Positions 1,747 through 27,621 of a stretch of 64,000 nucleotides of DNA are shown here, piece after piece. The DNA comes from Catenaria anguillulae PL171. Its lineage: Eukaryota > Blastocladiomycota > Blastocladiomycetes > Blastocladiales > Catenariaceae. The DNA lies in contig MCFL01000050.1 of NCBI GenBank assembly GCA_002102555.1, positions 109,911 to 173,910 of the forward strand, in the 5' to 3' direction. How positions within the stretch are numbered: position 1 is the first letter of the stretch; every line of letters starts with the position of its first letter. A program made the position numbers and the translations under genes. A model generated the notes under the pieces. The model worked only from the letters and a program-made list of their open reading frames with translations. It was not told the origin of the DNA and ran no database searches.

Positions 1747-2576
1747 TCACTTGTGCAATTGGCGTCGATTCCTCACGAACAGGGCAACGCAGATGAGCAG
1801 CAAGACAACGCCTCCCGCACAGCTAATCACAATCATGAGCATGTTCGAGGTGCCACTTGAGGATTGGGTCGATCCAGAGCTGCCCTCGGTGATCAACACA
1901 GCGGGAAATGTTGTGCCAAGCGTCGGACGAGCGCGTGAGGTCGGGGTTGGCGCGGCTGGTGTGGGAATCGTGACATTGGATGGGCAATTGAAATGAAAGC
2001 GAACTACATTGAGCGTATAGAGCGATTCATGCGATCGAATCAGTGCTTAAGTATCGCAGTGCAAACATGATGGCGAAGGGACGACTGGACGCAACCGTTG
2101 TTGATCGTCTCTGTGATGAGCGTGTCATGCTCGGCCTGTATACCCTTGAGCACGCACGAGTCGTACTCGGAATCCACCTGCCTCCATATTCCGCCTGTCG
2201 GCGAGACGACGCCCACGAGCGCATCGGCATAACCAATCGACTTGACGGATGACGCCCCAGTCACAAGGACATCGCGAATTCCATTGGGCGAGTCTGAACC
2301 TTGAAACAGCGTCTGGGGCCGGTGGATACCGAAAAAGGGGGGTGCTGCGATGCCTTGCTTTGGCGACTTGTCGGAACATGTGACAAAGATGCCAACCACG
2401 TCGGCTGCGACCATATGCACACCCTTTTTGGTTATCGAGTCGGAAGAGGCGCGGTGTGCGATTTCAAGGTCGAGGCGAGTCACAAATGAGTCGCCAGAGC
2501 ACAGGGCCAAGGTGGTGTTGGCCGACGGGTTGATTGTCCCAGGACGGTCGAAAGTTTTGATGTTTGACGATGCCAT
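1747..2576 (-). CDS. A1: type-A C-terminally anchored membrane protein (pair 1)
   Basis: Two exons, 2576-2096 and 2003-1747, join in phase 1 to give 245 residues. The ATG at 2576 is where the A family aligns (MASSNIKTFDRPG); no hydrophobic leader precedes it. The ectodomain has family cysteines in LCSGD, VTCSDK, SCVLKGI and FNCPS, plus the motifs NGIRD and SIGYADALVGV. After the intron come a Ser/Thr/Pro stalk, one membrane helix (MLMIVISCAGGVVLLLICVA) and the tail FVRNRRQLHK, which is shared with A2 and A3. It is transcribed head to head with B1. Family unknown; a beta-prism (VMO-I or jacalin type) ectodomain is only a guess from the spacing of Cys and hydrophobic strands. Confidence 0.85.
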
Positions 2577-3276
2577 GGTGTGCTGATTGTCGAAGAAAGA
2601 GACGTTCATCCAAGGTACATCCGGACTGCGGTTGTAGAGCATGCATTGAGATGTCAAGAAAATGTCAACAGTCAGAGAGCGTGTGGGGCCGGCCAAGGAG
2701 GTCCTCGCGAGATCAAGTAGGTAGGTGAAAAATGGATGATGGACTGAACCCCTTTCTGTGAGTTGTGAGTGTGTGTGTGTGCCCAGGTTGCGAAACCCAA
2801 CTGACACAAATTGAAAACGAACAAAGACATCAGACTTGACACATCAAATTGGCGACATTCACCGCCGCCACACCATCATGATACATATATATATAGTGGA
2901 GGTGTGGGAGCTTGATCAGTTGTGACATGTTTATGTACATGGGAAGTGCACTCGTGATCAAGTGAGACAAGCCCAGAGTTTGTTGGAAGTCTCACTTGGT
3001 ATACAACGGGCGGTTCACCGCAAATAAAGGAAACATCAAATGAAAAGGAGACCTATCGTGGAACCTTCGTCGAAATGCACGTACACTCTCTGCTGGGTCC
3101 CACTTGATCCGCCCAACATTCGTCTGGCGCTTCGGTCTCGCCCTCGCCGCGGCCTCCACCACACTTTTGGTCTCATATATGTAAATACGCATCAATCCAG
3201 CGCAACAAAAGAACCCCGTCTCGACGCTCATGAATCCTCTGATCGTTGTACATACTACAATTCGAAAAACCGCAAA
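2577..3276. promoter_or_regulatory. Shared divergent promoter of pair 1 (A1/B1)
   Basis: This 700-bp region between two opposed start codons holds a GT repeat (about 2766-2781), an AT repeat (2883-2896), a 10-bp inverted repeat (2959-2968 and 2989-2998, CAAGTGAGAC/GTCTCACTTG) and a 17-bp element at 3011-3027. The minus-strand reading of that element, TTATTTGCGGTGAACCG, recurs exactly in the pair-3 promoter at a matching distance from the B gene. Confidence 0.6.
3011..3027 (-). promoter_or_regulatory. 17-bp element shared with pair-3 promoter
   Basis: The minus strand reads TTATTTGCGGTGAACCG. An identical copy is at 23972-23988 (+). Here it lies 250 bp before the B1 ATG; there it is 247 bp before the B3 ATG, in the same orientation relative to the module. 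A 13/17 match sits 241 bp before B2. The role as an operator is inferred. Confidence 0.5.
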
Positions 3277-4233
3277 ATGTCCGCTTCAAATGCCACCGAC
3301 CCTTTGCGAACCTTCTCCCGGCTCATCGCCCTCGGCGGCAATGTGCAGAACCCGCCGACATCAACCAATGGCCTTGGCGAAGCGATTCGTGCGTCCAATG
3401 GCATGGCCCTGTGCCAAAAGCTCATCACCCGGCTCACGCTCGAAGCACGCACCGATCCACAAGGTCTTTCCAGTGTCGCCAACGGAATCGGCGCGCACTG
3501 CAGCGACTCGGACCGAGTCATCGGAATCAATTTCCTTGGCAAACCTCGCCGATTGAACGACGACCTTGTGCCGCAAGTACCCATGAACACAACGTTGGCG
3601 CAGGTTGCAGGGCCCGACGCCATGGACGGAATCAAGGATTTGACGGTGGGAATGGGCACCGTGGTCAATTCGACGGCGACAGGTGAGGCGAAGGAGCGCT
3701 TTGCGATTGTGTCGCTCGGGTATGCGGGAAAGGAACTCAAGTTGGACGGTCTTGCTGCAGGTAACTCGAGTGCAAGTCGTGCAAATGCCACGGCGGTGTC
3801 TGTCAAGAGCAACGGGGTGTGGAGGCAAAGTGAGTCGAGCGCTGCAGGATGTTCATTGACCGCGATCGAGGGCGTGTACCCATCCTTCATTTCAGGCAGT
3901 ATGCTTCCATTTCTGTCCTATCTGCTGTTCAAACCGTCGCTTCTGACTGACGCTAGTCATATGTTTTGCATGGATCGATGCTTTGTTCTTCCAGTTCGCC
4001 TTGTGTTTGCCTGCCCGGCGACCACCCAAGGCGGGTCAAGGGAATCACGTGCATTCATTATCGCCGCCTCGTCCACTGGAAGCACCAACGCGGAGGCCTC
4101 GAGCGGATTCGGCATCACAGAGTATCCATTTATTGCTGCCGGTGTCGCTGTTCTGCTCATCATTTCACTTGTAGTTGGAGTTGGGCGGTTGTGCAGCAGG
4201 CGTCGCAACACCAAGATGTTTGACCCGAGGTAA
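3277..4233 (+). CDS. B1: type-B C-terminally anchored membrane protein (pair 1)
   Basis: Exons 3277-3898 and 3995-4233 join in phase 1 to give 286 residues. The 96-nt intron has no in-frame stop, so an unspliced message would also read through with 32 extra residues. The start MSASNATDPLRTFSRL matches B2 and B3. No signal peptide is visible. Family landmarks are LITRLTLEARTDPQ, HCSDSD, AGPDAMDGIKDLTVGMG, FAIVSLGYAGKELKLDG, GVWRQSESSAAGC and the post-intron VRLVFACPA-type strand (here IRLVFACPA). A membrane helix (FIAAGVAVLLIISLVVGVG) and a basic tail RRRNTKMFDPR end the protein. Sequons such as NATD, NSTA and NSSA suggest the ectodomain is glycosylated, despite the lack of a leader. Partner of A1 by shared promoter. 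Confidence 0.88.
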   Translation: MSASNATDPLRTFSRLIALGGNVQNPPTSTNGLGEAIRASNGMALCQKLITRLTLEARTDPQGLSSVANGIGAHCSDSDRVIGINFLGKPRRLNDDLVPQVPMNTTLAQVAGPDAMDGIKDLTVGMGTVVNSTATGEAKERFAIVSLGYAGKELKLDGLAAGNSSASRANATAVSVKSNGVWRQSESSAAGCSLTAIEGVYPSFISGSMLPFLSYLLFKPSLLTDASHMFCMDRCFVLPVRLVFACPATTQGGSRESRAFIIAASSTGSTNAEASSGFGITEYPFIAAGVAVLLIISLVVGVGRLCSRRRNTKMFDPR

Positions 4234-5392: not shown

Positions 5393-8300
5393 ATGTCCTT
5401 TCCGTATCCGCAGCAGCAGCATCAGCAGCAGAAGTATGGGCAGCATCAACAGCAGCAGCCACATACCATCCTGCAGCAAGGTCGAGGCCAAGCACAGTTC
5501 GTGGCACTGGCACCCGCCCAAGTTGTGCATAGTGCATCGTCCTCGTCCTCGTCCTCCTCGCAACCGCTGCCACCAACACCATATTCGCAAGTGCACCACG
5601 GCCATAGTCAGCAAGCGCTCATGAACCACCCGTCATCGGCGCTCTTGTTTCCTACCGAACTGTTCAGCTCGACTGTCCCACACCCGGCCCAGTCGCGGTC
5701 GCTTGTCTCGCAGTCGCTGTCGCAGCAGCAGCAGTCGCAGTCTCAGCAGCAGCAGCAGCAGCAGCAGTCGCCCAATGCCTCGCAGCAGCAGAGCCAACGG
5801 TCTGCATCGTTTTCGATTCCGCAGCCCGATACTGCGTCGCTTTCGCTGTTGCTGTCGAGTGGCATTCGGGATCCAAACGGAATGACGACCATCACTCCTC
5901 AAACGCAGCAGGGTTTGGGCTACCAGCAGCAGTACCATCGACCGCCGCGGATACCATCACCAGCTGCACTGGATCATTCAACAGGCTCTGTATTGACGGC
6001 CGACTTGTCGACATCCCACCTGGATGACCTTGCGGGTCTTTTTGGGCCCATACCGCCACAAACGGCTGCCGCCGATGCCCCCGTTTCTGCCGCATGTCCA
6101 CCAACGGCAACGCCGCTCGCCACTCAGGATCTGCAACCCAGCTCTCTCGTTCGCAAACCTCCAGCACCGGCAACAGAGCACCCACAACCGTCGCAGCAGG
6201 CGCAACCATCATCCACCTCGGTTCCTGCCGACAACAAAGACTCGGTCGACGACCACCCTCTTCCTTTTGCCTGCCCGATGGTCTCTTGCCACCGCCGGTA
6301 CAAGACTGTCAAGGCTCTCAAAAAGCACATAGTGGATCACGCCAATGCCCTCACCGGTGATGCCGACGATCGCGATGTGAATGGAATTGTCGAGGAGGAG
6401 GATGCCAACCCGATCGTCACGACGACAACATCAGGCGACGAGTCACTTGCAACCAGGACATGTTCCGTGTGCGGGCGCGTGTTCAAGCGCAAGTCGGATT
6501 GCCAGCGCCATGAGCGGTATGCCCCTCAGCCTCTCATGTTCTCATGTCGACATAGTTTCTCTTTGCCTGACTTTTTCTCGTCACAGTTCACACACCAACG
6601 AACGGCCATTCGCCTGTGCGACGTGTTGCAAACGCTGGACACGCAAAGAGGGTTTGACCAAACACTTGCGCGAATCCGTGACTTGCCGAGCAGCGGAAGA
6701 GCTGCGCGTCAATGGCTTACTTTCTGGCTCGCCCTCGTCCACCCTCGTCTCACCACTCTCGCAGTCGCCCTCAATTACCTCAAGCTCGGGCTCGCCCTCT
6801 TCCATGTCTCCGCCCGTGATCACTCGCCGTGTATCCGCAAATTCCAAACTCTTTTCTCCTCCACATGACCACCTGGCACCTCCTTCGTCCTCATTGGCAT
6901 CGCTCTCCGGATCCGTCCCAACATCTCGCGCAATGCCGCTTCCCAGCCCGCTCGCCACCCCGCCTGCCGTTTCGCGCGCCCTCGCACAGGAATTCACGGC
7001 TCGCGAATCGGGTGCACCTGAACCAGACGATCCGCAATCCACCACGTCTGCTGGTTCGCTCGTGCCTCCACAACCTACAGCCGCGTCCGCAGCCGGTGCA
7101 CAGCAGTCCAACTTGCTGTCGCGGCGAATGATGCGTCGACCGGCGTCCATGATGCACGACGCGTCCTTCATGATTGTCCCTCCACAAGAACAGCAGCCCG
7201 CAGCAGTGGCCAAGGTCGATGATCCGCTCTCGAGCCCAGGCGTTGCACGACTCGCCAGCCTACGCATCCAACGCACAGAATCGCTCGACCTATCCACGAC
7301 CGACCTATCAAAACTCTCGGCATCACCTCGGCCGCCCTCGACCAGGGAAATCCAGCAGCCGCCCGCAAAGCGGCACGCAGGTTCCGGGTCGTCCGCCATC
7401 AATGTGCCCGGAGGGCCTGGATGGATGGGTGACACAGGCGCGCCCGAGCAGGCAGAGGTATTGGCCACGTCACCGCGGTCGCGCGGGCTGGCCAGGCACG
7501 TATTCGCAGATTTTACCCACGTTCCGTATGGCGCGAATCCAATCGGAACCACAGCACTTGCGCGTGCCCCGCACTCGTCGGCGACCACCGCCAACCCCTC
7601 GGCGACCACCGCACCGACAAGCGCGACGACCACCACCACTGCGCGCGGAACGAAACGCCCAGCGTCGTGGTCGCTGCAATCCACGGCCGACGCGCTGCTT
7701 CGCGAAACGCTGTCACGGCCGGACACGGGCGTTGCCGAACCGGCGCCGCCCATGGGCTCGCGCCGCGAAATGCTCGACTTCCCGCTCTTGCACATGATGG
7801 GTGGTGTTCCACACGGCTTTGGCGAAAGCGGATTCAGGCACTCGTTTGTGGGCGTGGCACCTATTCCGCCGAGCTCGAGCTCGGCGAGCGAGACAAAGTC
7901 GACCGTGGCCGGCACTGACTCTTCATGGACTGTGGACGCCAACGGGAACCCCTTGCTTGGTGCAAACCCGTCATCGTCCTCGTCGGCTGCCACGCTTGCC
8001 GGCGGGATGCTTTCGCACATTTCGTTGCCATCATTGACAAACTTGTCCATGCTCAGCCAATCGTCGTCGTCGGTCGCCGCACCTGCGGCTGGGACCACGC
8101 CCATGGGTCCTGCGGCGGCAAGCGTTCAGCCGACCCCACCACTGTCTGCGACCTCGTCCGATATCAAGTCCCCGTCGAGCTTCATGTCGTTTTCGCCCAA
8201 CTTGGGCGGCACCGCTGATAGCACCACGCCCGGTCCGGGTGCGCGCAGAGGCGCAGGCAATTTGGTCCGGATCCCGAGCCACTTGTCGTATGCGAGCTCT

Positions 8301-8834
8301 TTGATTGCGTCGCCTACTTTGGATTCGTTTGAAGGTGCAGCCGCCGTTGCAATGGCAAGCGTTTCTGGACTGGGCATGGGCCAACAAGAGCAAGGCCAGC
8401 AGCAGCACGCGCAACAGGTCCAGTCCTTTAGTCAGTCGCAGCCGACCATGCAGCACTCGCAACCGCCGCCGCCTTCCCTTGTGCAACAAGCGCCAGCGGG
8501 CCCGGGCCAACCAACCATGCTCAAGCTGCAGCCGATTGTCAACCCCGACGGCTCAACAACCATCCGGCTGCCTCCTGGGTTTGTACTTGCACCGGGCCCC
8601 CCGCCGCCTCAACCAAATGGATCTTTCAGTGCCAACTCAATGTCGTTGGCGCAACACCAGTTTGCGCCCGCGGCTGTCCCACAATTTGTCGTACTTCCGC
8701 ACCCACAGCAGCAGGATCAGCCTGGCCAGGCGCAGGGCCAAGCACACGATTTGTCGTCCTGGACGCAGGTGGTGCCGGGTTTAACGCAGGTCGGAATGAT
8801 GACCGCGCAGAATGGGGCATACATGTTGCGGTAA
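5393..8834 (+). CDS. C2H2 zinc-finger transcription factor with poly-Gln/Ser regions
   Basis: Exon 1 (5393-6516) and exon 2 (6587-8834) join in phase 2 to give 1123 residues. The splice falls inside a finger linker and restores HERSHTNERPFAC. Three fingers cluster at residues ~290-410: a degenerate one with C-x4-C spacing (CPMVSC ... KKHIVDH), a classical one (CSVCGRVFKRKSDCQRHERSH, spanning the splice junction) and a third ending in H-x5-C rather than H-x3-H (CATCCKRWTRKEGLTKH). The N-terminus is rich in Gln (CAG/CAA runs) and Ser; the long C-terminus is Ser/Pro/Gln-rich, as in activation or IDR segments. This layout fits a nuclear sequence-specific regulator; target genes cannot be told. 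A 507-codon antisense frame over exon 2 is a composition artefact. Confidence 0.88.
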
Positions 8835-9174
8835 ACTCGCGTGTCCGCATTAGATTATTTTTGTTCCTTTTTTTGGTTCTTTTGTTTGTTTTTCAGTTAC
8901 CCCTCTTCGCGTTTTTCTTGCTTCTTTCGCTTTTTGTATTGGCACCCCCGTGTTTCGCTCCGAGTCGGCTTGCCGTTTTGTACCAATGATTGTCGTTGAG
9001 TGGAAGTAAGTAATGATGTACATAAATGTATCATTGTCGTCATATTCGCAAGCAAGTGTGTAAAGAGTCGTGTAAATGAACAATCAGAACAACCACTATG
9101 ACAACCAAAACGAAAACAAGTCGCTTGCCTAGTAGTCGGACACAATCAATCCCCGCTTGCATGTCTGAAACGCC
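8835..9174. other. 3' ends of two convergent genes
   Basis: This 340-bp, T-rich then A-rich stretch lies between the stops of the zinc-finger gene (+) and the docking-complex gene (-). It is presumably the two 3' UTRs; nothing else is seen. Confidence 0.5.
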
Positions 9175-11309
9175 CTAATCCTTCTTGTCAGTGCCCATCC
9201 TGGCCCTCCGCCGCCTCTTACTCGATCCACCCCCATTCTGCATCCGCTTGGTCAATCCCCGCAAACTCTTGCTTGCCAACTCTTCCCTACTCAACGGCCG
9301 ATCCTCATCCGCATCCTCATCCGAATCCTCATTGTCACCTGTATTCGGCGCAACGATCTGCACCACGACCGCTGTGGGGCCGCGAAGATGTGCATTTCCA
9401 CCTGCCGGTGCGCCCGCCGACCCGGCGCCGCCGCCATTTGCATCCCTGCCCTCGGCCGATGTCGGCGCGGCAGATCCGGGCGCGCTTCCACTTGACCCGT
9501 TTCCATTTGCGCCAGCTGGGGCATTGGGCCCCGTGGGACTGGCTGACGCGAGCTTGGCGCGCGGATTGGTGGCAATTTGGTGCAGAATCAAAAGGTCATT
9601 GACGCGTTCTTCGATGCTGGCCAGGTGCGACAGCAGCGCGTCGGCGGTCGAGGCGCCAGCGGGCAGTTTGATGTCGGCCATGATGAACGGGTTGGTCGTA
9701 ATGGCCGACGAGGCTGCGGGTTGCTGTGGCGAGGTGGGCGACGAAACGGCCGTGGAAGAAGCCGATGGACCAATGTTGGATGACGACGAGGCGGCTGGAG
9801 GGCCAGTCACGGCCGCAGCAGCTGCTGCTGCGGCGGCGGCTTCTGCGTCGTCAGCCGCCACAGGGGTCGTGGACGTGACTGTGACGTTACTGGACCGGAA
9901 CGCGTCAACGAGCTTGAGGACATTTTCGTACAGGCCCGTGACCATGGCCTGGATCTCGTCATTGTGCGCCTGCAATTGCATGCTCTTGTCCCTCGCATCT
10001 TGCAAATGCTTTTCCAACACTCGCAGACGTTTGTTGCGATTGACATCTGCGCGCTTGTTTTCGTCGTCCATGCCGTCGATTTGCCGCTGGATCCGCACAA
10101 GCTCCTCGCCAATCTTTTCCACCTCGTTGTTGACCTGGTTGACATAGTTGAAGAGCGAAAAGTTTTGCTCTTCCACGTCCTTGAACCGCTGCACGAGCTC
10201 GTCGAGCGATTTCACGCCCGTGACTTCTTGGATGTGATTGAGCACCTTTTCGTACGAGGCCACCGACACGTTGAGCACGTCTTGCGAGGACGACGAGGCT
10301 TTCGACAAGCCCGCACCAGGGGCGCCAGCCGCGGCACCTGCGCCGCCCTTGGGCTGTAAGCGGCCGGGCGAGTTGGAGGGCGAGATGGACGAGGCGGTTG
10401 GGTCGAGCCCGGCACTGCCCAGAAGAAGTGCGCCTGCGTGACGGTCGGCTGCCTTGGTCGCAAGGAAATTGCGCAGTTTGCGGTCTTGCTCGAGCGTGCG
10501 GTCGAGTTCCTTGATTTCTTGAATGTATGCTTGGTATTCCTTTTCGGCTTTTTCCGACAGGATGAGGATTTTGGCTTGTGCTTCATCGCTGTAGTTGTGC
10601 CGAGTTGAAGCATGTCAAGTAAGACATCCAATAGTGGAAAGAACAGGTGGCATGTGGCGTACCGTGCTTCATAGGCTGCATTGGAACTCTCAATGATCTC
10701 GGCCATGGCCTTCTTTTGCTCGGTCAACTCACGCTCAAACTTTGTGTACACGGTATCAAACACCAACCGCTCCCTCCTCAAGTTGTCAATCAATCCCCTG
10801 AATCGCTTGTTGTTGGCGAGCGCCCGGTTGTACTTGACGAGCGCCTGGTCCAGCCTGTTTTCTAGAATGCGAATCTGCTTTTCAATGGCAAGCGAATTGA
10901 CCATGGCCGCATTCACGCCGCCCATTTGCTGTCGCTGCTTGGCCATGGCCTTATGAATCTCGTCCATTTCCTTGTCGAGCTCGCCAATATGCTCGGCAGC
11001 CGTCTTCATGCGCCGCTGATGCAAATCTGCGCGCTGGTGCAAGATCTCGGCCTTTTCGGACCCTGTCCCGTTGCGTTTGGTGTCTTCAATGCGCCGCTGG
11101 GCTAGGGCCAGTTCTTGCAGCAAGTACTCGTTGTCACGGCGGAGTTTGTCGATGGCTGACCGCTGCTTTTTGATGAGCTGGCGGGCTTCTTCAGCATAGG
11201 ATTTGCGCTCGGATTCCATGACGCGGAAGGTCCGCTGCAGTTTGGAGTATTCGAGCTCGACGGCACCGTCGTTGGCTTCGCCCGACGTGACAGATTGCGC
11301 GCGGCTCAT
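9175..11309 (-). CDS. ODAD1: Outer dynein arm docking complex subunit (DC2/CCDC114-CCDC63 family)
   Basis: Exon 1 (11309-10663) and exon 2 (10588-9175) join in phase 2 to give 686 residues. Long coiled coils fill residues ~15-370. Family landmarks are the N-terminal ELEYSKLQRTFRVMESERKS, the SSNAAYEA|RDEAQAKI segment across the splice, SYEKVLNHIQEVTGV, VEEQNFSLFNYVNQVNNEVE and a C-terminal PLSREELASK. The family links outer dynein arms to axonemal doublets, so this gene implies motile zoospores. An in-frame ATG at 11369 would add 20 residues; 11309 was chosen because MSRAQS directly precedes the conserved region. A Ser/Pro/Gly linker (~270-310) and an Ala/Ser-rich C-terminal part are insertions relative to animal proteins. 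Convergent with the zinc-finger gene and divergent from Rab5. Confidence 0.9.
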
Positions 11310-12293
11310 GGCGAATGGTTCAAGATGGGATGGGTTGTTCAGGGCAGGGGATGTGCAGACAGCTTTCAACGGTTGGGCTCAAGGGCGGATCTAGTGAATT
11401 GCATGAGGTTGCATTGGGTCAAGGTCCTGTTTGCTCAGGCATTTGTCGAGGTGAACTGGCAGGCATGATGCTTTCAGTAGCTGAGAACAAAAATAGGGAA
11501 CATCTCGAAGCACACAGACAGTGACGCGTCAACAAAACAAAGGGCTAGTGCGTCCGTCTCCAAGCTGGAAATGTCGAGCGGCGGGATCGAACGAACATAA
11601 GAACAGGATTGAGATGAAGGCGAAGAGGTGAAATAGGTCGGGGGACGCATGTTGGCAAAGCGAATGCCTGGTGGTGGGATGCATCTCCGGTGTTTGGACC
11701 ACCGCGCGCGAATGAAGAAGCCTTCTAGAGCGCGACGAGAGAAGAAGTCGAGAAGGCAGAAGGCGAGAACGTGGCTGGCTCGAGCTCAGTCACAGTCACC
11801 TGGCTCGAGCTCTTTTTCAGTTCAGAGTCTTGTCTTGTCAGCAGACCACAGCCGCCAAGTCGATGGCACCATCAGCCATCAGCCAGCGAATTTCGAAGCT
11901 GAAGGCAAGAATCAATGCACGCTATCCATAGTATTCGCCAAAAAGTACTGTATGAAACTCTGAGCATTTGCCCCGCACCGGCTGCTGCCTTGATCTCCAC
12001 TGCCCGTTTCGTTGTCACCGCCGGTCGTTGCCACTCTGCCTGTTACTCGCCACATTGCGCCGCCCACTGCCGCCGCTCACCAACCACCCACCACGCAAAC
12101 GCAAACGCTCCTTCCAGCCAGCCAGTGGCAGCCCGCACTCGCTCCACCCTTTACCCCCTACAAGCACTTTGCATGCAGGCAGCCAGACTGACGCACATAC
12201 TCGCTCCTGTTGCTGCTGCACACGTGCCTTACCCTGAATCCGTCTTTAGTTATTGATTCATCTGTCCTGCAATCCGAGAAACCTACCCCAAAA
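11310..12293. other. Divergent intergenic region (ODA docking gene / Rab5), no gene seen
   Basis: Nearly 1 kb between opposed start codons. The Rab5 side is C-rich (about 12000-12290), typical of leaders here. No coding frame is supported. Confidence 0.4.
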
Positions 12294-13582
12294 ATGTCTG
12301 CCCCCGCCGCCGCCGCCGCCGCTGCCGCAACTCCCGTCCAGGTCAAGCTCGTACTCCTTGGTGGGTTTCTTCTCTTCACGCCGCCTGCCGATGCCCAAGC
12401 TTTGGCAGTGCCGATCCGGCGCGTCCATCCTACGGGCTAAGCGACCTCTGGCATCTTCTGCCCAACTGACATGCTCATTTACCCATGCCACTTGCCACTT
12501 GAAATCAAATAGGCCAAGGTATGTCCTCGCTTTCGTCGCGCACGTCTTTCCAATGCTCCATGAACTCTCACCGCTCCGTCTCATGCACCTGTCCAATTGA
12601 ATAGCCGCCGTCGGCAAGTCGTCGCTTGTGCTTCGGTTTGTTCGCAACGAGTTCCAAGAGAACCGTGAACCCACCATTGGCGGTGCGCCTTTTGGTTTTG
12701 CTGATGACCTGTTGGTTTCGATGTGCATTGCTGACGCACCCTGACCTTTTACTTCCGATTTTCTTGCTCAGCCGCTTTCCTGACGCAAAAGTGCAAGGTC
12801 GACGACAAGGTGGTCAAGTTTGAGATTTGGGATACAGGTCGGTTTTCATTCTCTCGCCTTTGCTATTTCGTCCATACCTTGTGCTTCCATCATCATGATT
12901 CCCTTGGCTCGTGGCATGGCCATCAGCTCGTCTCATGCTTGCGCCCAAGCCCGGAAATCGGACCCCACGTTCACTCGTTACGCAAACACGCAGCATCCCT
13001 CAAACCCTCACACGTTTTTTCCCCATCCATGTCACTCACCTCCCTCAACACCTATGCTCCACCATGACATTTTCCAGCCGGCCAAGAGCGCTTCCACTCG
13101 CTCGCGCCCATGTACTACCGCAACGCCCTCGCCGCCATTGTCGTGTATGACGTGACGTCGGCGCAATCCTTTGACAAGGCCAAGTCGTGGGTCAAGGAGC
13201 TGCAGCTTCAAGGAAACGCAAACATTGTCATTGCACTTGCAGGCAACAAGATTGACTTGGTCAAGTCCGAGGGCGAGAGCGTGCGCGAGGTGGCCGAAGA
13301 CGAAGCCAAGGCATATGCACAGGAAACGGGCCTCTTGTTCTTTGAGACGAGTGCCAAGGACGGGACAGGCGTCGAGACTATTTTCAACGATATTGGTATG
13401 TGGCTTTTCACTCCCCTTTCTCATGTGTATGCGCTACTCACTCGCTCGTCTTGGTCGTGCCCACGTCTCGTATCACAGCCAAGAAGATTCCGTTTGAGCA
13501 GATTCTCGCAAAGAACAATGCACCCCGTCAAGGCGTCAACCTGCACGAGCCGCAGGCGCCTGCACCCAAGGGGTGTTGCTAA
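12294..13582 (+). CDS. RAB5: Rab5-type endosomal small GTPase with a 6-nt micro-exon
   Basis: Six exons (12294-12360, 12513-12518, 12605-12682, 12772-12837, 13078-13395, 13479-13582) give 212 residues. All five introns are phase 1. Exon 2 is only GCCAAG, flanked by AG and GTATGT; without it the P-loop GQAAVGKSS would be one residue pair too short to keep G-x4-GK-S. Further signatures are TIGAAFLTQ (switch I, Rab5-specific), [18 protein letters not shown] (switch II), GNKIDL (G4), ETSAK (G5) and the C-terminal geranylgeranyl motif GCC. Rab5/Vps21 controls homotypic early-endosome fusion and vacuolar sorting. An Ala-rich N-terminus precedes the G domain. The fold and subfamily are certain; exon 2 is inferred from the motif and splice sites. 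Confidence 0.93.
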
Positions 13583-17954: not shown

Positions 17955-18422
17955 GATGGATTTGGCCACACACCCTTCGACATTTCTCTTTCTTGTCTCC
18001 TTTCATGTACATATGCGGTGATTACCTCCCTCCCCGTCCCTCCTCCTTTCCATGTCTTGTTTCCCGCACACAAGTCTTGGTTTTGATGCTGGCCGGCCTG
18101 CCTGGCCCTTGACTCTTATTTACCCCCTCCCTTTGTTTGTCTGTCTGCACCACATAGTATGTTTTCACTTTGTTGTTCTTTTCGTTCGTGATATCATTTG
18201 TTATTCAATGCAGAAAGATGTTTACTGCCTGAATTGTTGGTGGATGGGGTCTCCCAGCGCTTCTCTCAGAGTGTTCAGTGAACACCAAGGTTTTGTCTCA
18301 CATGAAAATAGTGAAAATTCCACATATTGCCGAGTCAAAAGTGTACAGCACACACAAAAATCACAATCTAGCTCGGTTTCCTCGTCACCCTCATGCCCCC
18401 CTGCGACAACCGTTTGGCTCAA
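17955..18422. other. Convergent 3' region, no gene seen
   Basis: 468 bp between the stops of the Ser-rich gene (+) and B2 (-). AT-richer and T-rich; presumably two 3' UTRs. Confidence 0.4.
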
Positions 18423-19350
18423 TTACACCCTCGGCTTTGGATTAAACATGTTGGTGTTGCGCCGCCGCCGGCATCCCAACCCAACCACCATGGCAACGAT
18501 AAGCAGAACGGCAAACCCAGCGCCCATGGCTGCGAACGTCATCATACCAAAACCAGCCGTGTCGGAATCACTTGGACCGGTCGAGGCAGCAATGAAGAAT
18601 GCTTGCGGGTCGCCCGAACCGCGTGGAGTTGAAGCAGGGCAGGAAAAGTAGAGGCGAACTGTGAGAAACGACAGTGGTTGAATGTGAGACTGTGCGTTGC
18701 AACATGGACCCGGTGTGTTGTCGGAGCATCATACCGCCCGAGATAAACGATGGATACACAGCCTCGATCCCAGTCAACGCACACCCGGCCGCACTTGACT
18801 CGCTTTGCTTCCACACCCCGTTGCTCTTGACAGACACGGCCGTGGCATTTGCACGACTTGCAGTCGAGTTACCTGCCGCCAGTCCGTCCAACTTGAGCTC
18901 TTTGCCCGCATACCCGAGTGACACAATCGCAAACCGTTCCTTATCCGCTCCCGTCGCCGTCGAATTGACCACGGTGCCCATTCCCACCGTCAAATCCCTG
19001 ATCCCATCCATGGCATCGGGTCCAGCAACCTCGCGGTTCATGGACGTTGTCTCGCGCCACGGCAGGATCAACGCGCCATTGCTGCTGGCATTGATGCCTT
19101 GCGGCTCGTCCGAGTCGGAGCAGTGTGCGGCCAGTCCGTAGGCAATGTTCGGAATAGATTGTGGGTCGGTGCGTGCCTCGAGCGTCAGGCGCGTGATGAG
19201 TTTGCGGCAATGCACTAGGCGGGTTGACAGGCTCGTGCCGAGGATGGGTGTGAGGGCGGAGGGTTGCTCGATGTTGCCGCCGAGGGCAATGAGTCGGGTG
19301 TAGGTCTTGAGCGGGTCGGTCGCGGGGACAATGGGAGAGGCGGACGACAT
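18423..19350 (-). CDS. B2: type-B C-terminally anchored membrane protein (pair 2)
   Basis: Exons 19350-18735 and 18658-18423 join in phase 1 to give 283 residues. The start MSSASPIVPATDPLKTYTRL is nearly the same as in B3. Motifs: LITRLTLEARTDPQ, HCSDSD, AGPDAMDGIRDLTVGMG, FAIVSLGYAGKELKLDG, GVWKQSESSAAGC, then after the intron VRLYFSCPAS. The membrane helix AAMGAGFAVLLIVAMVVGLG and tail RRRRNTNMFNPKPRV match the B1 and B3 tails (basic run, then NT/KT-x-MF). No N-terminal leader. It shares a 561-bp promoter with A2. Confidence 0.88.
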
Positions 19351-19911
19351 TGTTTGTGGTGAAAGTCGTTGGGTGTCGGGGTGTGCATGAGAAAACGTTA
19401 CAGACTTGGTGCAAGAAACGGCGGGCCACGAGGGCCGAGGGTGTGTGATGGTTTTGTACTGATGGTTCCCTACGTTCAATGCAAACTCGATGGCGACATC
19501 TGTCTGCGACGAGGAAAGTGTCGAGAAGAGATTCGGAACTTTCCCCAGCCTTCTTGACAGATCCAAACCTTGTCACATGGAACATGCAAATCATTTACGG
19601 TGTACTGCCTCGACATTCCACGCCACGAAAAGATGGCTCACATGACGGACGGTGCCTTCCTCGAAACTTCTGAGAAGCCCTGTGACCATTCCGCCTGTTC
19701 GGACGTCAGCCATTGCCCCAACCCTAACCTGCCGATGTTGTGTGTGCCAGCTCCACATTGACGAATCGGCATTCAAAAAGCAATGGATACCTCTCAATTT
19801 CAACTCCGTCGCTGACATGACTATTTGTGCTACATACCCCTGTCTCGCGCTGTTCACCTCTCCCAGAATCGCACTCCCGCACTCATCGCGTCCACTGCTC
19901 CACAAATCGCC
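19351..19911. promoter_or_regulatory. Shared divergent promoter of pair 2 (B2/A2)
   Basis: 561 bp between opposed starts. At 19591-19607 the plus strand reads TCATTTACGGTGTACTG, 13 of 17 matches to the element of pairs 1 and 3, in the same orientation relative to B and 241 bp from its ATG. Confidence 0.45.
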
Positions 19912-20751
19912 ATGGCTGCAACAAACCTCAAGACCATTGACCGGCCCAAGCCTTTCGAGTCCACTGGCGGCAAAACCATGCTCGCCATGTGCCCAGGCGA
20001 CTCGTTCGTGACTCGCCTCGACTTTGAAGTCTCGCACTGGATCTCGTCCGACGCCAAAACAAGACAAGGTGTCTTTCGTTCCATGCTCGACGTGGTGGGC
20101 ATCTTTGCTACGTGCTCCGACAAGTCTCCCAAGCAGGCCATTACGTTCCCCAAGAAATTCAATGCGGGTGCGCCCAAGACGCTGTTCCAAGGGCCAGAGT
20201 CTCTCAATGGGATCCGCGACATGGTGGTAAATGGGCAAGTGTCCGTGACGGCCATTGGATACGCCGATGCGCTTGTGGGCGTCATTTCTGGGGATAGCTT
20301 GATGTCGGTGGATGTTTGGAGGCAAGTGGATACCGAGTATGCGCCATGTGTGCTCAAGGGAATCGAGGTGGAACTAAAGGGGATTACAGGTGGAAGTGTG
20401 GAGAAAGGTACAGCCCGTTCTGACTCCAGCCTGGCAATGTTGTCTCGCTCGCGCTGCCGTACTGAACCATGTCACTGACTTTATTAAATTGTATTCCTGT
20501 CAGTTCGCCTGCATTTCAACTGCCCAGCCAATATCACGATTTCCACGCCAACATCCACCTCGCGCACGCGCCCGGCTCCTGGCACCACGATTCCCGCCGT
20601 GCTTATGACTGAAGGCAGCGCAACGTCGGCAGAAGTATCTAGCGGAAACTCGACCATGCTTATGATCGTGATTGGTTCTGCGGGCGGCCTGGTCTTGTTG
20701 GTCATCGGATTTGCCTTGTTTGTACGGAATCGGCGCCAACTGCACAAGTGA
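19912..20751 (+). CDS. A2: type-A C-terminally anchored membrane protein (pair 2)
   Basis: Exons 19912-20407 and 20504-20751 join in phase 1 to give 247 residues. Landmarks: IKTIDRPKPFES, AMCPGDSFVTRLDFEVSHW, TCSDKSPKQAI, NGIRDMVVNG, VTAIGYADALVGV, VWRQVDTEYAPCVLKGIEV, and after the intron VRLHFNCPAN. A Thr/Pro/Ser stalk, a membrane helix (STMLMIVIGSAGGLVLLVIG) and the tail FVRNRRQLHK follow. Much of exon 1 is nearly identical to A3 at the DNA level (for example around 19988-20100 and 24530-24640), pointing to recent duplication or conversion. Confidence 0.88.
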
Positions 20752-21558
20752 GCAGGAGCGGGCGTGGCCATGCTGTGTTGACGTATTTGTCGGGTGGTGT
20801 ATACTTCATATCGAACCAGTTTTGGGATATCCATGTAATGTCGTTATTCTCCTCAGCTGGCTTGCACCAAAGGATTTTTAGGTCTGTCTCACGGTCAGCC
20901 CGCGGTCCGTCGGCTGCGTCTCTGTCACGGCCAGGTTTGTTCGCGCCTTTGCGGCCGAGGACCGATCGACTGGTCGTAGGTTTACATGACAGCAGTCTGA
21001 GGGCACCATTTCAAACATCAACTCTATGCATTTTCTCAATGAACTCATTATGACCAGCATGCACCCGCTCCTCGTCACCATTGGCCGTCGTCCTTCGTCG
21101 ACCTGCCCGCCGCAGCGGCCCACTGAAGATCACTTGAACTGCTCGACGATCCCGACCTTGCATTTGCAACCCCCGGCTCTGAATTCGGCGCGGTCTCCTT
21201 TCTCATTTCATGAGGAATCCGTTGGCGCTGCAGTGAGCGGCATTATTGACCACGTTGAGCGCTCATCGCCGTGCGCACCCACCCAAGCTGGGCTTTTCCT
21301 GGCATTCAATGCTGCCTCCCTCGCCGAATCTTGTGTGTAAGATCACAAGCCAGCGTCGGGGATGATGGGATATCATTTCCATTTCTAATTGGTCCTCCGA
21401 GTGCCTTTTCCTCAGACTTTGCCTCGCTCGTCCTGTCCTCGCTCCGTGACGCTCTCCCGAAATCATGCATCGTCGCATGTCCACTGCAATCAATTCCGCC
21501 ATCACCTCAGATTTCGCCATTGTCTCCGTACGCCGCTGTGCTCGGGTATGCAACGGCG
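20752..21558. other. Intergenic / possible 5' part of next gene
   Basis: About 800 bp with no convincing gene. The frame of the following gene is open back to about 21271 but without an ATG, so an undetected 5' exon could lie here. Confidence 0.3.
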
Positions 21559-22518
21559 ATGGAGCATGCTGACGCCATCCTGATGGCCGCGTCCGACGAT
21601 GTGCTCACAAGCTCGGTCAGTCACATGTTTCCATCGCCAAGAGCAAGGCATGGTACCAAGTCGTTCGGCAATTTGGCCAATGCGGAACGGCCGATGCTGC
21701 TTTTTGATTTGGTGACGGCGTGCTGCCCCGTTCCACATCTCAAGTATCTCAATGTCGGTTTGTCAAAGTACGTACTTTTTACTTTGCCGCAACCGATTTC
21801 GGATCTAGCTTACCATGCGTACAAAACTCAGGACACAGCGCGTGCATCCGGGCGCACTGCCCGACGCAAATGTCGCCGTGACCACCTTGGTCGACGCACT
21901 CAAAAGTGTGCATGACGTTCGGCCGTGGTACGCCACCTCCGTTACATTGGCCGTCTTGTTGTCTGTCCCGTTGCTTACGCTCATGATGTGTGTTTTGCCC
22001 AGTACGCTGGCCGCCACACTGCATGCATCCTCGCATATTGTCAACGACAACCCAACATGGTCGTGGACTGCCGTGCGCGGCAAACTTGCGACCAAGCTTC
22101 GCTTTACGCCAGCTTCGTTTGACGGCGAATCCAGTCTTGGGTTGCCCTTGTATTGCCGGACCGTCGCTCACCAGCATGGTGGTGGGTCACCGCTGTTACC
22201 AGGTGCATTTTCCTTCCCATCTCTTCGTTTGCCCCTCGTCGCACCTAACCAACCTCTCGATTGGCTTCAGATGTCCGCAAACCATCCGCAGCAACCGCTC
22301 GAACTTCAAAATGGCCATCGGCTCAGCTCTCGCTCGTCTACAACTCTGCCTCGGTTGCCGCGAGCGATCTCGCGCAAATGGCCGTTGCGGCCACGCGCAA
22401 GGCACACGCCCAAGCGTTTTTGCATCACTTTCCTTTTGAAATCGGCAACGAGTGGATCCCGGACGCGTGCGAGGCCATGTGGGAGAGTGTTGACGAATAC
22501 CGCGAGTATTTGCAGTAG
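21559..22518 (+). CDS. Unknown protein with one hydrophobic segment, three exons
   Basis: Exons 21559-21767, 21832-22202 and 22271-22518 join in phases 2 and 1 to give 275 residues. Splice sites are AAA|GTACGT, CAG|G, CAG|GTGCAT and CAG|ATG. The start is the first in-frame ATG; the true N-terminus could be upstream. A hydrophobic stretch (SVTLAVLLSVPLLTLMM) lies near residue 105, followed by a soluble C-terminal part ending ACEAMWESVDEYREYLQ. No family recognised. It sits between pairs 2 and 3 of the A/B modules without resembling them. Confidence 0.5.
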
Positions 22519-22739
22519 TTGTAGGTCAGGCATGTGTCATGTGCCGAGCATGCCTGGCAATACGTTCAAGTTGCCAAGTACCAATGGCACTTTTGCTACC
22601 ACAGTGTGTGATGTAAAAAATATGCAAACGACTGATCCATTCGTACAAAATTGAACACATTCTGTAAAGTGACACACTCTGAGAACTTATCACCGAATCT
22701 AAACATCGTATCCGCCGTTCGTTCCACACGCCCAACTCG

Positions 22740-23725
22740 CTACACTTTCGGGGCAAACATGGAGGTCTTGCGCCGCCTCCATACCAACCGCCCAAGCACC
22801 ACCGCCACCACGAGCAAGATGGCAGCCCCAATGCCAATGATGGCAATCGTTGTGGCGTGAAGACCAGACGGCGCCAAGGCATCTGCAGTGTTGCTACGAG
22901 TCCCGCTGGTCGGGCCTGGAGTGGTTGTGCGGTTGGTGGACGAGGCAGAGGCAAGGACGAATCCACGCACGTCGCCTGACCCACCTTGAGTTGTGGCCGG
23001 GCAAGAAAAGTAGAGACGAACTGGAAGAAACGGAAATGGTATTGGTTAGTAGCTGTGAGGCATTTTGTCATGTAGACAAGGCACACATTGCCAAACATAC
23101 CACCCGAGATAAACGATGGATACACGGCCTCGATCGAAGTCAATACACACCCTGCCGCACTCGACTCGCTCTGCTTCCACACACCATTGCTCTTGACCGA
23201 CACGGTCGAGCTGCTCGAGTTGCCTGCCGCGAGACCGTCCAACTTGAGCTCCTTGCCAGCATACCCGAGTGACACAATGGCAAACCGCTCTCTTGCTGAA
23301 CCCGCCGCCGTCGCATTCACCACGGTACCCATTCCCACCGTCAAATCCTTGATTCCGTCCACGGCGTCGGGCCCTGCAACCTGCGCCAGAGTCGATCCTT
23401 CGGGCGCATTGGAATCCAAATCGGTGAATGTGCGCCTGGGCTTGCCGACGTAGTTGATCCCCTGTGCCCTGCTGCCCGGGGCCCTGACTAAGTCACCGTC
23501 ACTGCAGTGTACGCCAACGCCGTTGGTCACACCAGGAACAGATTGTGGGTCGGTGCGTGCTTCGAGCGTGAGTCGCGTGATGAGCTTTTGGCAATGGTAC
23601 AGCCGGGTCCACGTGTGGGTCACACCAAGGGTGGGCCGTTGCTGCACATTGGCGCCGAGGGCAATGAGCCGGGTGTAGGTTTTCAGCGGGTCGGTCGCGG
23701 GAATAATGGGTGAAGCCGACGACAT
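22740..23725 (-). CDS. B3: type-B C-terminally anchored membrane protein (pair 3)
   Basis: Exons 23725-23101 and 23020-22740 join in phase 1 to give 301 residues, the longest B copy. Start MSSASPIIPATDPLKTYTRL. Motifs: LITRLTLEARTDPQ, HCSDGD, GKPRRTFTD (also near-identical in B1), AGPDAVDGIKDLTVGMG, SLGYAGKELKLDG, GVWKQSESSAAGC, VRLYFSCPAT. The Ser/Thr/Pro stalk is longer than in B1 or B2; then comes a membrane helix (TTIAIIGIGAAILLVVAVVL) and tail WRRRKTSMFAPKV. No leader peptide. Shares a 729-bp promoter with A3. Confidence 0.88.
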
Positions 23726-24454
23726 ATTGTTGGGTGAGCAGGAGGGATGACTTGAGGTACTGCTCGATTTCATCCAACTATCTGGAGTTGGGAATGCTTC
23801 GTTTATACGTGCCCCAGGTGTCCGGGGCATGTGTTGGTGATTGCTCGCACCGCCCAACATGTTGCCTCAAAACGACACGGCGGCAGGCGGAGGGCGTGCT
23901 TCGATGATATCGCCTACAACTCTTCCACCCAGCTTCTGGATTGATTCCCTGTGCCTGCATGTATACGCTGATTATTTGCGGTGAACCGTTGTGGAATCAA
24001 GCGTGAAGGCTCCTCATGTCTCATGTGTCAATGTTGTTGTTTCACATGATCTCTTGACACGATCGTCAACGTTCCAGGGTCTGCAAAATTGCATTCGAAT
24101 CAATCTTCAACAGTTTGTCAACGGTGGTCTGTGTGGCGGCGGTGCAATGACTCCAACATTGGTCATTTTGGAAGCTTCAATCTTTGATGTCGTCTCCGTT
24201 CGTGGGCTTCCTTACCTGGCGCAGACGCCGAGGCATGATCATGACCGATTGAGGTGTGGGTGGGAAAGGGCGGCCGACACCGTCACACATTTATCTCTCA
24301 AGTACTCCCAGATTTGCCTTGGCGATACTAGTGTATCAGTCTCGTGGTCTGGGCTGAGTCTCCATGCAACTTCACGCGTCCTCACGCATCCTCACGCATC
24401 CGCATCACTCACACCATCATCTCCCACTCGCATCGTCCGTCCTCAACCACAACC
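23726..24454. promoter_or_regulatory. Shared divergent promoter of pair 3 (B3/A3)
   Basis: 729 bp between opposed starts. It carries the exact 17-bp element at 23972-23988. A short direct repeat CTCACGCATC appears near 24385-24410, close to the A3 start. Confidence 0.55.
23972..23988 (+). promoter_or_regulatory. 17-bp element shared with pair-1 promoter
   Basis: Reads TTATTTGCGGTGAACCG, identical to 3011-3027 on the other strand, and 247 bp from the B3 ATG. A chance 17-bp match at the same relative place in two related promoters is unlikely; it may be a binding site or a relic of duplication. Flanking sequence is much less similar, which favours selection. Confidence 0.5.
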
Positions 24455-25306
24455 ATGTCGGCAACCACCATCAAGACCATTGACCGCCCCAGGGCTTTTG
24501 ACCCGTCGGTCACCACCAGGCTCGCCATGTGCCCAGGCGACTCGTTCGTGACTCGCCTCGACTTTGAAGTCTCGCACTGGATCTCGTCCGACGCCAAAAC
24601 AAGACAAGGTGTCTTTCGTTCCATGTTCGACGTGGTCGGCATCGTTACTACGTGCTCTGACAAGTCTCCCAAGCAAGCCATCACATTCACCAACAAGTTT
24701 GGTGCTGACACGCCGAGGGCGCTTTATCGTGGACCTGATGCTCCCAACGGGATTCGTGACATGGTGGTGAACGGGATCGTCCGCGTGACGGCCATTGGAT
24801 ACGCCGATGCGCTTGTGGGCGTCCTTTCTGGGGAAAGTATGATGTCGGTGGATGTTTGGAGGCAAGTGGATTCCGAGTATGCGCCGTGCGTGCTCAAGGG
24901 AATCGAGGTGGCGCCAGAGAAGCTTTTGAGTGAAAGCGTGGACAAAGGTACGCACAATCCCCATAGTCTTTTGTTGAATCGCAGTTGTCACAATTGCTTA
25001 CCGAACGCTTCTATGACTTTGGAACGGCCAAATGGCCCAGTTCGATTGCATTTCAATTGCCCATCGACCGTGTCGATTCCCACCCCAACCTCAACCTCAA
25101 GTGCTCGTACGGTCCCTGGCACCACGGTTCCTGCCGTGTGGATTACCGAGGGCAGCGTGGCATCGCCAGCATCATCAGCATCACCTGCCGCCGTAAGCGA
25201 CAACTCTACCACGCTCATGATTGTGATTGGGTCGGTGGGCGGTGTCGTCTTGTTGCTTGTCGGATTCGTCATGTTTGTGAGGAACCGGCGCCAACTGCAC
25301 AAGTAA
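24455..25306 (+). CDS. A3: type-A C-terminally anchored membrane protein (pair 3)
   Basis: Exons 24455-24947 and 25041-25306 join in phase 1 to give 252 residues. The 93-nt intron has no stop in frame, so intron retention would insert 31 residues. Landmarks as in A2: IKTIDRPRAFDPS, AMCPGDSFVTRLDFEVSHW, TCSDKSPKQAI, NGIRDMVVNG, VTAIGYADALVGV, VWRQVDSEYAPCVLKGIEV, VRLHFNCPST. A stalk, a membrane helix (LMIVIGSVGGVVLLLVGFVM) and FVRNRRQLHK follow. The stop codon faces that of B4 167 bp away. Confidence 0.88.
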   Translation: MSATTIKTIDRPRAFDPSVTTRLAMCPGDSFVTRLDFEVSHWISSDAKTRQGVFRSMFDVVGIVTTCSDKSPKQAITFTNKFGADTPRALYRGPDAPNGIRDMVVNGIVRVTAIGYADALVGVLSGESMMSVDVWRQVDSEYAPCVLKGIEVAPEKLLSESVDKGTHNPHSLLLNRSCHNCLPNASMTLERPNGPVRLHFNCPSTVSIPTPTSTSSARTVPGTTVPAVWITEGSVASPASSASPAAVSDNSTTLMIVIGSVGGVVLLLVGFVMFVRNRRQLHK

Positions 25307-25472
25307 AGAAGATGATGCTGTCAGTGGAGACTACTCGAGGTGTGGCTACGGAGTGTATGTGTCTTAGATCGGAGCAGCTTTCAATTCACAGATCAATACA
25401 GACATGTAGACAGTTTCTCAAGCGACCGTGGGAGACGTGGCAATTCGCATAAGAGTATATTTAAAGGAGATC

Positions 25473-26402
25473 TCACGCAGCATTTGTTAATACACCACCC
25501 GAGTTCATTTGATTCACGCTCAGGCTCACGTCATGAACGATACTTTTCTTTGGTGCCCAGCGTGTCTTGAGAGAGAGCCAAAACCGGGCAAACATGCAAG
25601 CACTTGCAAGAGCGCCAAGCACCGAAACGGTTATGAGTGAGAGGGAAAGAAAGTCGAGACCGAGAAAGAGGGCCGCAGAACCTTGGCTTGCACCAGCAGC
25701 CTTGTACGAGACAACTGCAAAAGTCCTCGGGGAGCTTGATGTGGAGCTTCTGTTTAGCATTTGTGCTTGGCAAGCAAAGATGAGACGAACTGGGGACGTT
25801 GTCGGTTGAGTTAATTACCGTTCGGCCCGCTGAGGTGAAGTATACATGGACGGACCGCCAGTGAGAACCTCCCTCGAATTGCCCTCGATCCCAAGCAATG
25901 CACACCCTGCAGCCGTCGAGTCACCTTGCTTCCACAGGCTCCGTGCTTTGAATCCAAACGACCCAGTCACATTCAAGTTCCCAACGACTGGAACGACACT
26001 TGAATCCTTGCGCAGCTCCACACCCGTATACCCAATGGACACAATTGCAAGCATATTGTCATCCTTTGCGGTCGCATTACCACTCCCAACCAACCCGGTT
26101 CCCACCACCAAATCGCGAATCCCGTCCATCGAGTCTGGTCCCTCTTGTCGGCTCAATGTGGTCACTTCCAAACCGCGGCTGCGAACGATCCAGGCATCAC
26201 GACTTTTGTTCCCACAATGGACACCAATACCAGCAACAAGGCCCGGAATGCTCGGGCTATACGTCCGCCAGTCAATGCTGATTCGCGTCGCAAGATTGCG
26301 ACCGCAAGAGACGAGTTGAGCATCTGTGCTGTTTGTCGTTGGAAGGGTGGAGCCCAAGTTGACTGTGTGCAGGTAGGTCTTTGTTGGGTCCATAGTTGTC
26401 AT
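25473..26402 (-). CDS. B4: divergent type-B membrane protein (pair 4)
   Basis: Exons 26402-25856 and 25789-25473 join in phase 1 to give 287 residues. The donor is GTCCGT, weaker than in its paralogues but the only phase-1 GT there. Motifs: MDPTKTYLHTVNLGS, ATRISIDWRTY, HCGNKSR, EGPDSMDGIRDLVVGTG, AIVSIGYTGVELRKD, LWKQGDSTAAGC, VRLIFACQAQ. The membrane helix (SLITVSVLGALASACMFARF) is followed by a ~36-residue tail unlike the MF tail of B1-B3. A second ATG at 26393 is possible. A run of 15 C residues (on the sense strand) lies about 38 nt before the ATG. Confidence 0.82.
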
Positions 26403-26810
26403 TGATACGATGCATGTGAAGGACACTATGTGACTTGAAGGGGGGGGGGGGGGGAGGGGAGCTCGACTCATATGTGGATGTGTCGCTGTTGTCGTAACGC
26501 GGGTTATGCTGGTGCAACCGCTCATCGAACTGTTCACCGCAATGGCACCTGAATCCCCTGATCTCGAGAAGTGAGACACAGAAACTGGTCCTCACCCTGC
26601 TGTAATTGCATAGCTGGTTCCGATATGAGACGTTCGGGACCGTCTCCCTGCGTTCCACACCAGAAATGGCCACAATCGGACGGGCGAGTCAAGGCCCACA
26701 CATCTCACAAATACATCATGTGCCCGTCAGGATAGACGTACTGGTCCCAAGCCAATGGAAAATCCGTTTTGAAAGTTCCAAATGTGCATTACATTCCAAC
26801 CATTTCTTCC
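26403..26810. promoter_or_regulatory. Shared divergent promoter of pair 4 (B4/A4)
   Basis: 408 bp, the shortest of the four. It has a G15 run at 26440-26454, the core GTTCACCGCAA at 26531-26541 (11-bp match to the 17-bp element, but reversed relative to the module) and one AAGTGAGAC copy near 26567, as found in the pair-1 inverted repeat. Confidence 0.4.
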
Positions 26811-27621
26811 ATGAGCACGCGAACCGTCGACCTTCCCTCCGCCATTGGCAATGTCAACACGACGCTGGCCTTGTGCACCGGCACAGACGCATACGTGACC
26901 CGCATCGATGTGGGGCTGGCTTACTGGGTATCGCCCAGGCAGAAAACCAAGCAGGGAGACCCAATGTCGTCACTTGACATCACCTCCGTGGCCATCAAGT
27001 GTTCCAGCAACAATACCCTCTTACAGTCCATTGCGATAAATCGTTGGACGCTGCGGGATGCGTCGCGCGAAGCGTCCACGGTGCAATTTCAGGGACCCGA
27101 GGAGACCAAAGGCATTCGCGATATGGTGGTGGGGGTCACGGGTTCAGTGACGTCGATTGGGTATGCGGGCGGATTTGTGGGGGAGGTTGTGGAAACAACA
27201 GGATCGCAGACGCTGGCGAGCCTGTGCATCTGGAGGCAAGTGGGATCCTACTTTGAAGCATGTCTTCTGAAAGGAGTTGAGGTCCCGACCGCGAGTGGGC
27301 TGAAAGGTATGTATTCCATGAACACTTTATCAATGCTATGTGTTTCTCGCCGGTTGGTTCAATTCCCCTCCCCCGACTCCAGTTCGGCTCCACTACCTTT
27401 GCCCATCCACGTTCGTCGTTCCCACGCAAACTTCCCGGCCTCGACCAACAGTCACCACGTTTGCGGCGGAAACAGTTGCCGAGGACACCGCTGCATCTTC
27501 AAGGGCCAGTGCAACGATCGGGCGTGTCAGCAATGTGATTGTTTTCGGAATTGTCGGCGGATCGTGTGCGATCATGTTTCTGTTGTGTTGCTGTGCCGCG
27601 TACATGACGAAGAGGAGGTAA
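26811..27621 (+). CDS. A4: divergent type-A membrane protein (pair 4)
   Basis: Exons 26811-27306 and 27383-27621 join in phase 1 to give 244 residues. Landmarks: ALCTGTDAYVTRIDVGLAYW, IKCSSN, KGIRDMVVG, SVTSIGYAGGFVG, IWRQVGSYFEACLLKGVEV, VRLHYLCPST. A stalk with Thr/Ser/Ala, a membrane helix (VIVFGIVGGSCAIMFLLCCC) rich in Cys, and a short tail AAYMTKRR replace the FVRNRRQLHK end of A1-A3. The four ectodomain cysteines are kept. Paired head to head with B4, also the divergent member of its family. Confidence 0.85.

Follow-up and report, generated by a model that had tools for sequence, protein, structure and literature searches.

Four divergent gene pairs for predicted membrane-anchored beta-prism proteins in Catenaria anguillulae

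The window analysed here, a stretch of 64,000 nucleotides of contig C404 from the worm-parasitic fungus Catenaria anguillulae, carries eight genes arranged as four divergent pairs, each composed of one gene of type A and one gene of type B. The strain, PL171, is placed in the Blastocladiomycota, and the species can be grown in culture. A preliminary description of this DNA had proposed four head-to-head pairs at these positions, and all eight genes are found there with a single end corrected (B4 ends at 25479 rather than 25473). The division into types A and B also holds in that the two are distinguishable, but they are not unrelated, as a tree of the ectodomains places them in two branches of one family.

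The explanation that we tentatively favour, and regard as quite possible, is that these four head-to-head units encode paralogous membrane beta-prism proteins that act jointly, are driven together, and spread by copying of the unit. Each product would comprise a leaderless N-terminal beta-prism I domain, a Ser/Thr-rich stalk, one transmembrane (TM) helix, and, in all but B4, a short basic tail. One ancestral divergent pair would have been copied as a unit, with a spacer element driving both genes together. Located on the cell surface and probably acting as an A:B complex, the A and B proteins might jointly mediate adhesion or recognition, the wall-less zoospore being one stage at which this could happen, and the presence of several pairs together with gene conversion might supply variant ectodomains. 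To our knowledge, the surface molecules used by zoosporic parasitic fungi for host recognition are poorly known. The genes described here belong to an anchored beta-prism family that is invisible to Pfam and, within searches of limited reach, found only in Catenaria, and they form four apparently co-regulated two-gene units inside that family.

Gene models and predicted fold

The eight genes are located in the window as follows.

1747..2576, minus strand: A1, exons 2576-2096 and 2003-1747
3277..4233, plus strand: B1, exons 3277-3898 and 3995-4233
18423..19350, minus strand: B2, exons 19350-18735 and 18658-18423
19912..20751, plus strand: A2, exons 19912-20407 and 20504-20751
22740..23725, minus strand: B3, exons 23725-23101 and 23020-22740
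24455..25306, plus strand: A3, exons 24455-24947 and 25041-25306
25479..26402, minus strand: B4, exons 26402-25856 and 25789-25479
26811..27621, plus strand: A4, exons 26811-27306 and 27383-27621

All eight genes have two exons separated by a single phase-1 intron of 66-96 bp, whose position is common to all of them and lies directly 5' of the last ectodomain strand (VRLxFxCP-like). The database entry BCR44DRAFT_38973 (P0001), a gene prediction rather than a transcript, is identical to our A2 model letter for letter, splice included. A second entry, BCR44DRAFT_58068, has the splice of the A3 model but a start internal to A3. The splices of the remaining six genes are based on homology of the intron position. 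A1 encodes a leaderless beta-prism ectodomain followed by an S/T linker, a TM segment, and a basic tail of nine residues, and B1 is a paralogue with the same architecture. This single-pass build bears out the earlier view of the products as membrane proteins resembling receptors or adhesins.

Profile searches and structure prediction had been suggested as checks. Pfam profiles matched none of 20 family members at E 0.1, and other profile scans gave weak, unrelated matches only (best E 0.015). Sequence searches against solved structures likewise returned weak matches only, mostly to transmembrane or linker segments. The predicted model of A2 matches beta-prism I folds with Z to 11.3, and that of B1, predicted from a read-through ORF with a mean pLDDT of 57, does so with Z to 11.1. 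From these models, the A and B ectodomains are predicted to be beta-prism I domains with a lectin-like fold. This fold is shared with jacalin-related lectins, ZG16, and VMO-I, to which A2 is 3-15% identical (VIA rows) and from which the A/B proteins differ by their membrane anchor and four conserved Cys residues. A viral origin was considered and rejected, in that one structural match, to a Fadolivirus protein (E 4.6e-5), is read as the same common fold.

According to the available text of one study, jacalin-related lectins carry a mannose-binding GXXXD motif before the last strand (PMC4059138). This motif is found at that position in none of 18 family members, a count that leaves out the C432 member, where the last-strand pattern was not found. 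GxxxD occurs at other positions in four of the 18, none of which is an A or a B protein. A survey of fungal lectins names jacalin-like lectins in Agaricomycetes, and the available main text makes no mention of Catenaria (PMC8227253). Within the open-licence literature, we found no publication linking jacalin with Catenaria anguillulae, and nothing relevant on transmembrane jacalin proteins in chytrids or on fungal transmembrane beta-prism ectodomains.

Second copy, gene conversion, and intergenic spacers

All eight genes are present again on contig C9, in the same order and on the same strands as in the window. Two stretches were compared, one of 5.5 kb that aligns at 94.8% identity and one of 10.6 kb at 93.2%, and we infer that C9 represents the other haplotype of the locus. 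Pairs 1 and 2 are further apart on C9, by about 7 kb (window 5687-18378, C9 12479-32193), and C9 27500-32193 aligns to the window only via repeats like those at window 5408-5795. Other genes are also found around the pairs. A gene for an ODAD1-like ciliary coiled-coil protein (PF21773) occupies window 9175-11378 on the minus strand, as expected of a fungus with flagellated zoospores. Open frames without a Pfam match lie between pairs 2 and 3 (21259-22651, plus strand), and a D-arabinono-1,4-lactone oxidase-like gene lies 1.7 kb beyond pair 4 (29340-30887, plus strand).

The open frame is kept in seven of the eight C9 copies. Comparison of the window with C9, expressed as ratios from computed dN and dS with gapped codons dropped, gives dN/dS values of 0.40 for A1, 0.27 for B1, 0.31 for B2, 0.52 for A2, 0.42 for both B3 and A3, 0.59 for A4, and about 1.2 for B4. 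Seven of the eight genes are thus under purifying selection (0.27-0.59), and, with open frames kept in seven C9 copies, they look like real, constrained genes. Pseudogenes or chance ORFs are rejected on these grounds for all but B4, and for A2 and A3 also by the database models. B4 is the most diverged B gene. A one-base gap in exon 2 separates its window and C9 copies, and its predicted tail of 45 residues is atypical and lacks the basic cluster present in the other tails. Its C-terminus is possibly decaying, and the gap and the atypical tail suggest that the B gene of pair 4 may be on its way to being lost.

Two A genes share a segment that bears the signature of an exchange.

19980..20085, plus strand: apparent conversion tract in A2, 106 bp identical to A3 24520-24625
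24520..24625, plus strand: partner tract in A3, identical to A2 19980-20085

A run of this length was equalled in none of 1000 codon-column shuffles, and over 60 bp of the tract, A2 and its C9 counterpart have an identity of only 58%. Judged by these comparisons, the segment is best read as a gene-conversion tract. The exchange alters residues 44-58, which lie inside the long hairpin of the A-type domain. A 45-bp run between B1 and B2 (P 0.001, uncorrected) is a weaker conversion candidate, and the remaining 22 of the 24 paralogue comparisons give P 0.014 or more (uncorrected), so that A2/A3 is the one strong case among the 24.

The preliminary description had also proposed a shared promoter of 0.4-0.7 kb within each pair. 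The spacers are indeed of this size (408-729 bp), and a site within them suggests that each may act as a bidirectional promoter shared by A and B.

2577..3276, 700 bp: A1-B1 spacer, putative bidirectional promoter
19351..19911, 561 bp: B2-A2 spacer, start codon to start codon
23726..24454, 729 bp: B3-A3 spacer, start codon to start codon
26403..26810, 408 bp: B4-A4 spacer, start codon to start codon

This site is near-palindromic and occurs once in each of the eight spacers of C404 and C9, in the window at the following positions.

3011..3024, minus strand: element TTTGCGGTNNACCG in spacer 1 (C404:112921-112934)
23975..23988, plus strand: element TTTGCGGTNNACCG in spacer 3 (C404:133885-133898)
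19598-19607: degenerate element CGGTGTACTG in spacer 2, the C9 copy of which has the full element
26530-26539: degenerate element CTGTTCACCG in spacer 4, orientation reversed relative to B

In pairs 1-3 of both contigs, a distance of 238-256 bp separates the site from the start codon of B, and in pair 4 the site is reversed relative to B. The spacers are otherwise unalignable, with matches of 17 bp and 26 bp that both involve pairs 1 and 3. Such persistence of a site at one position, where the surrounding sequence has diverged beyond alignment, is what a shared regulatory site would be expected to leave. The full 14-mer TTTGCGGTNNACCG has five copies in the 41.07 Mb assembly, all five of them in A-B spacers (C404 pairs 1 and 3; C9 pairs 1, 2, and 3; five of the eight spacers), for a pattern that was chosen after the sites were viewed and whose copies are related by descent. 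Spacer 2 of C404 and spacer 4 on either contig have no full element. A control pattern read backwards likewise has five copies in the assembly, and a slightly wider element pattern matches nine sites in the whole window, four of which are the spacer sites. Random stretches of the window equalled the spacers in two of 60 sets at a width of 14, and in three (C404) and 12 (C9) of 60 sets at a width of 12. The 11-mer GTTCACCGCAA has 23 copies in the assembly, compared with 34 for its control, and four of the 23 are inside A-B spacers. No 8-mer is common to all four spacers, and one 7-mer is, compared to 1.56 by chance.

The wider family and the origin of the pairs

The assembly was searched with A2, B3, P0004, P0005, and one member from C113, and the fetched pieces were scanned with profiles. 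With all counts being lower bounds, these searches yielded at least 25 further family loci on C113 (13), C112 (5), C441 (2), C432 (2, one fragmentary), C79 (2), and C417 (1), and at least 13 more that resemble second copies on C9 (8), C245 (4), and C19 (1). One of the four C245 loci is without a clear partner on C112. Outside Catenaria anguillulae, protein database searches returned no homologues, and P0003, which is among the matches, is the window's own unspliced A1. Two of these searches scored only the candidates with the most words in common with the query, 8000 and 7999 in number, and a third missed P0001, itself a row of its query. Given these limits and a genome search that covered the C. 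anguillulae assembly among Blastocladiomycetes, the absence outside Catenaria is weak evidence.

In a tree of 45 ectodomains, which leaves out the fragmentary second C432 locus, the A proteins form one clade (99/97) and the B proteins another (99/95). A4 and B4 each branch first within their own clade, and the identity of pair 4 to the rest is 0.35-0.40 in both A and B. The branching order of pairs 1-3 differs between A and B, with A2+A3 set against B1+B3 at weak support, and a label-permutation test of A and B distances places the observed pairing at rank 5 of 24, which is not significant. These relationships make it probable that a single divergent pair was ancestral to all four and that the unit was duplicated. 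If so, the A+B composition of all four pairs does not reflect four independent events, but is probably one inherited feature that has been kept under selection. That the composition is kept in every copy had earlier been taken to mean that the two products work together. The four A+B pairs stand, but the inference is weaker than had been stated, because pair 4 is an outlier in both clades and unit duplication explains the composition.

An explanation by passive retention is possible, although we consider it somewhat doubtful. Here, one inverted duplication would have been followed by copying of the unit, with A and B being surface beta-prism proteins that act separately and whose genes remain linked solely through their common promoter. 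The outlying position of pair 4 and an A+B composition that was inherited rather than regained are both in keeping with this. So too is the arrangement of the wider family on the primary contigs, where 12 of 14 adjacent pairs of non-A/B members are tandem, one is convergent, and one is divergent (orientations were counted between family members, whatever genes of other families intervene). However, in pairs 1-3 neither gene is disrupted on either contig and all dN/dS values lie below 0.6, and every A and B gene found is paired (8/8 in the window and 8/8 on C9), meaning that loss has left no orphan. The lone divergent pair outside A/B (C113:246216-249679, L062; 246.2(-)/248.4(+)) joins two different subfamilies of the beta-prism family, and its spacer does not contain the A/B 11-mer, allowing up to one mismatch.

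Membrane topology and comparison with known paired systems

Topology was assessed by hydropathy and charge counts, rather than with a trained predictor, for 19 members with full frames, and by this measure the N-terminal region is free of hydrophobic segments in all of them. The simplest reading of the sequences is an N-outside, C-inside topology without a cleaved signal. A signal peptide on an upstream exon was also considered. The first exons of pairs 1-3 show 64-84% identity while the spacers barely match, and a conserved upstream coding exon is therefore unlikely.

The A and B proteins might instead be tail-anchored intracellular proteins whose beta-prism is kept in the cytosol. The lack of a hydrophobic N-terminus would suit this arrangement, as would the position of the TM segment, which is 9-17 residues from the C-terminus, and so within about 30, in seven of the eight proteins (B4 excepted). 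We nevertheless judge it improbable. The 15 residues after the TM segment carry an excess of K/R over those before it in 18 of 19 members (B4 ties), four Cys residues are conserved, and all eight A/B proteins have sequons upstream of the TM segment and none downstream. In addition, the eleven non-A/B relatives examined have tails of 68-191 residues, some of which carry PPxY (DPP[AS]YL on C113, C245, and C79, for example L062, L068, and L071; PPVY in P0005 on C112). This is a likely WW-domain docking site, which would be expected in the cytosol.

A locus for mating or self-recognition in which the paired genes are polymorphic, as in fungal HD1/HD2, would have divergent pairs in several copies and could explain why the two A2 copies differ strongly in one segment, but it is very unlikely given that the other seven genes are 94-98% identical in nucleotide sequence between copies and that none of 20 window ORFs has a mating-type domain (Pfam, E 0.001), leaving the mating function proposed earlier unsupported. 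HD1/HD2 mating pairs and head-to-head plant NLR pairs are also divergent genes for partner proteins; these proteins are soluble or intracellular and belong to families unrelated to A/B.

Several observations count against our favoured explanation of jointly acting, co-driven units. The folded domain that must cross the membrane has about 170 residues or more and no leader, the A and B trees of pairs 1-3 are discordant (permutation rank 5 of 24), and B4 looks degenerate. Moreover, the spacer element was fitted post hoc and is equalled by its control, and GXXXD is present in 0/18 members.

By layout, the closest counterpart of the A/B genes appears to be ves1alpha/ves1beta of Babesia bovis. In the available portions of three accounts (PMC7485966, PMC6630957, PMC9477259), these genes form head-to-head pairs of paralogues with quasi-palindromic bidirectional promoters, and short segmental gene-conversion tracts are described among ves genes. 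The encoded VESA1 is a heterodimeric surface adhesin with one C-terminal TM segment, a short tail, and no signal peptide (PMC6630957 for the last), a lack that the A/B proteins share by hydropathy. The earlier statement that no described family has such an architecture therefore fails, on these accounts, with respect to layout.

Both systems, as far as these accounts go, have divergent pairs of paralogues around a shared spacer, and both encode proteins with a single C-terminal TM segment, a short tail, and no signal peptide (by hydropathy for A/B, where the B4 tail has 45 residues). They differ in that the Babesia ectodomains are described as a Cys/Lys-rich domain and a coiled coil, whereas those of A/B are predicted beta-prisms. 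VESA1 is also apicomplexan, with over 100 genes and part of the ves genes unpaired. The heterodimer and the variation are reported there as demonstrated for VESA1, whereas A/B are known from sequence and predicted models. Since the ectodomain descriptions differ and ves was compared by description only, the likeness is one of working rather than of family membership, and the A/B scheme was probably reached independently. A heterodimer of the two products is a hypothesis prompted by this layout. A fuller version, which we consider unlikely, would see an independent VESA1-like system in a fungus, with heterodimeric beta-prism adhesins, bidirectional promoters carrying a genome-unique palindromic element, and hairpins exchanged by gene conversion, through which zoospores would recognize one another or their nematode hosts. 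Should the two proteins prove to be parts of one receptor, the strategy of paired genes and gene conversion known from Babesia would have a second, independent example in this locus.
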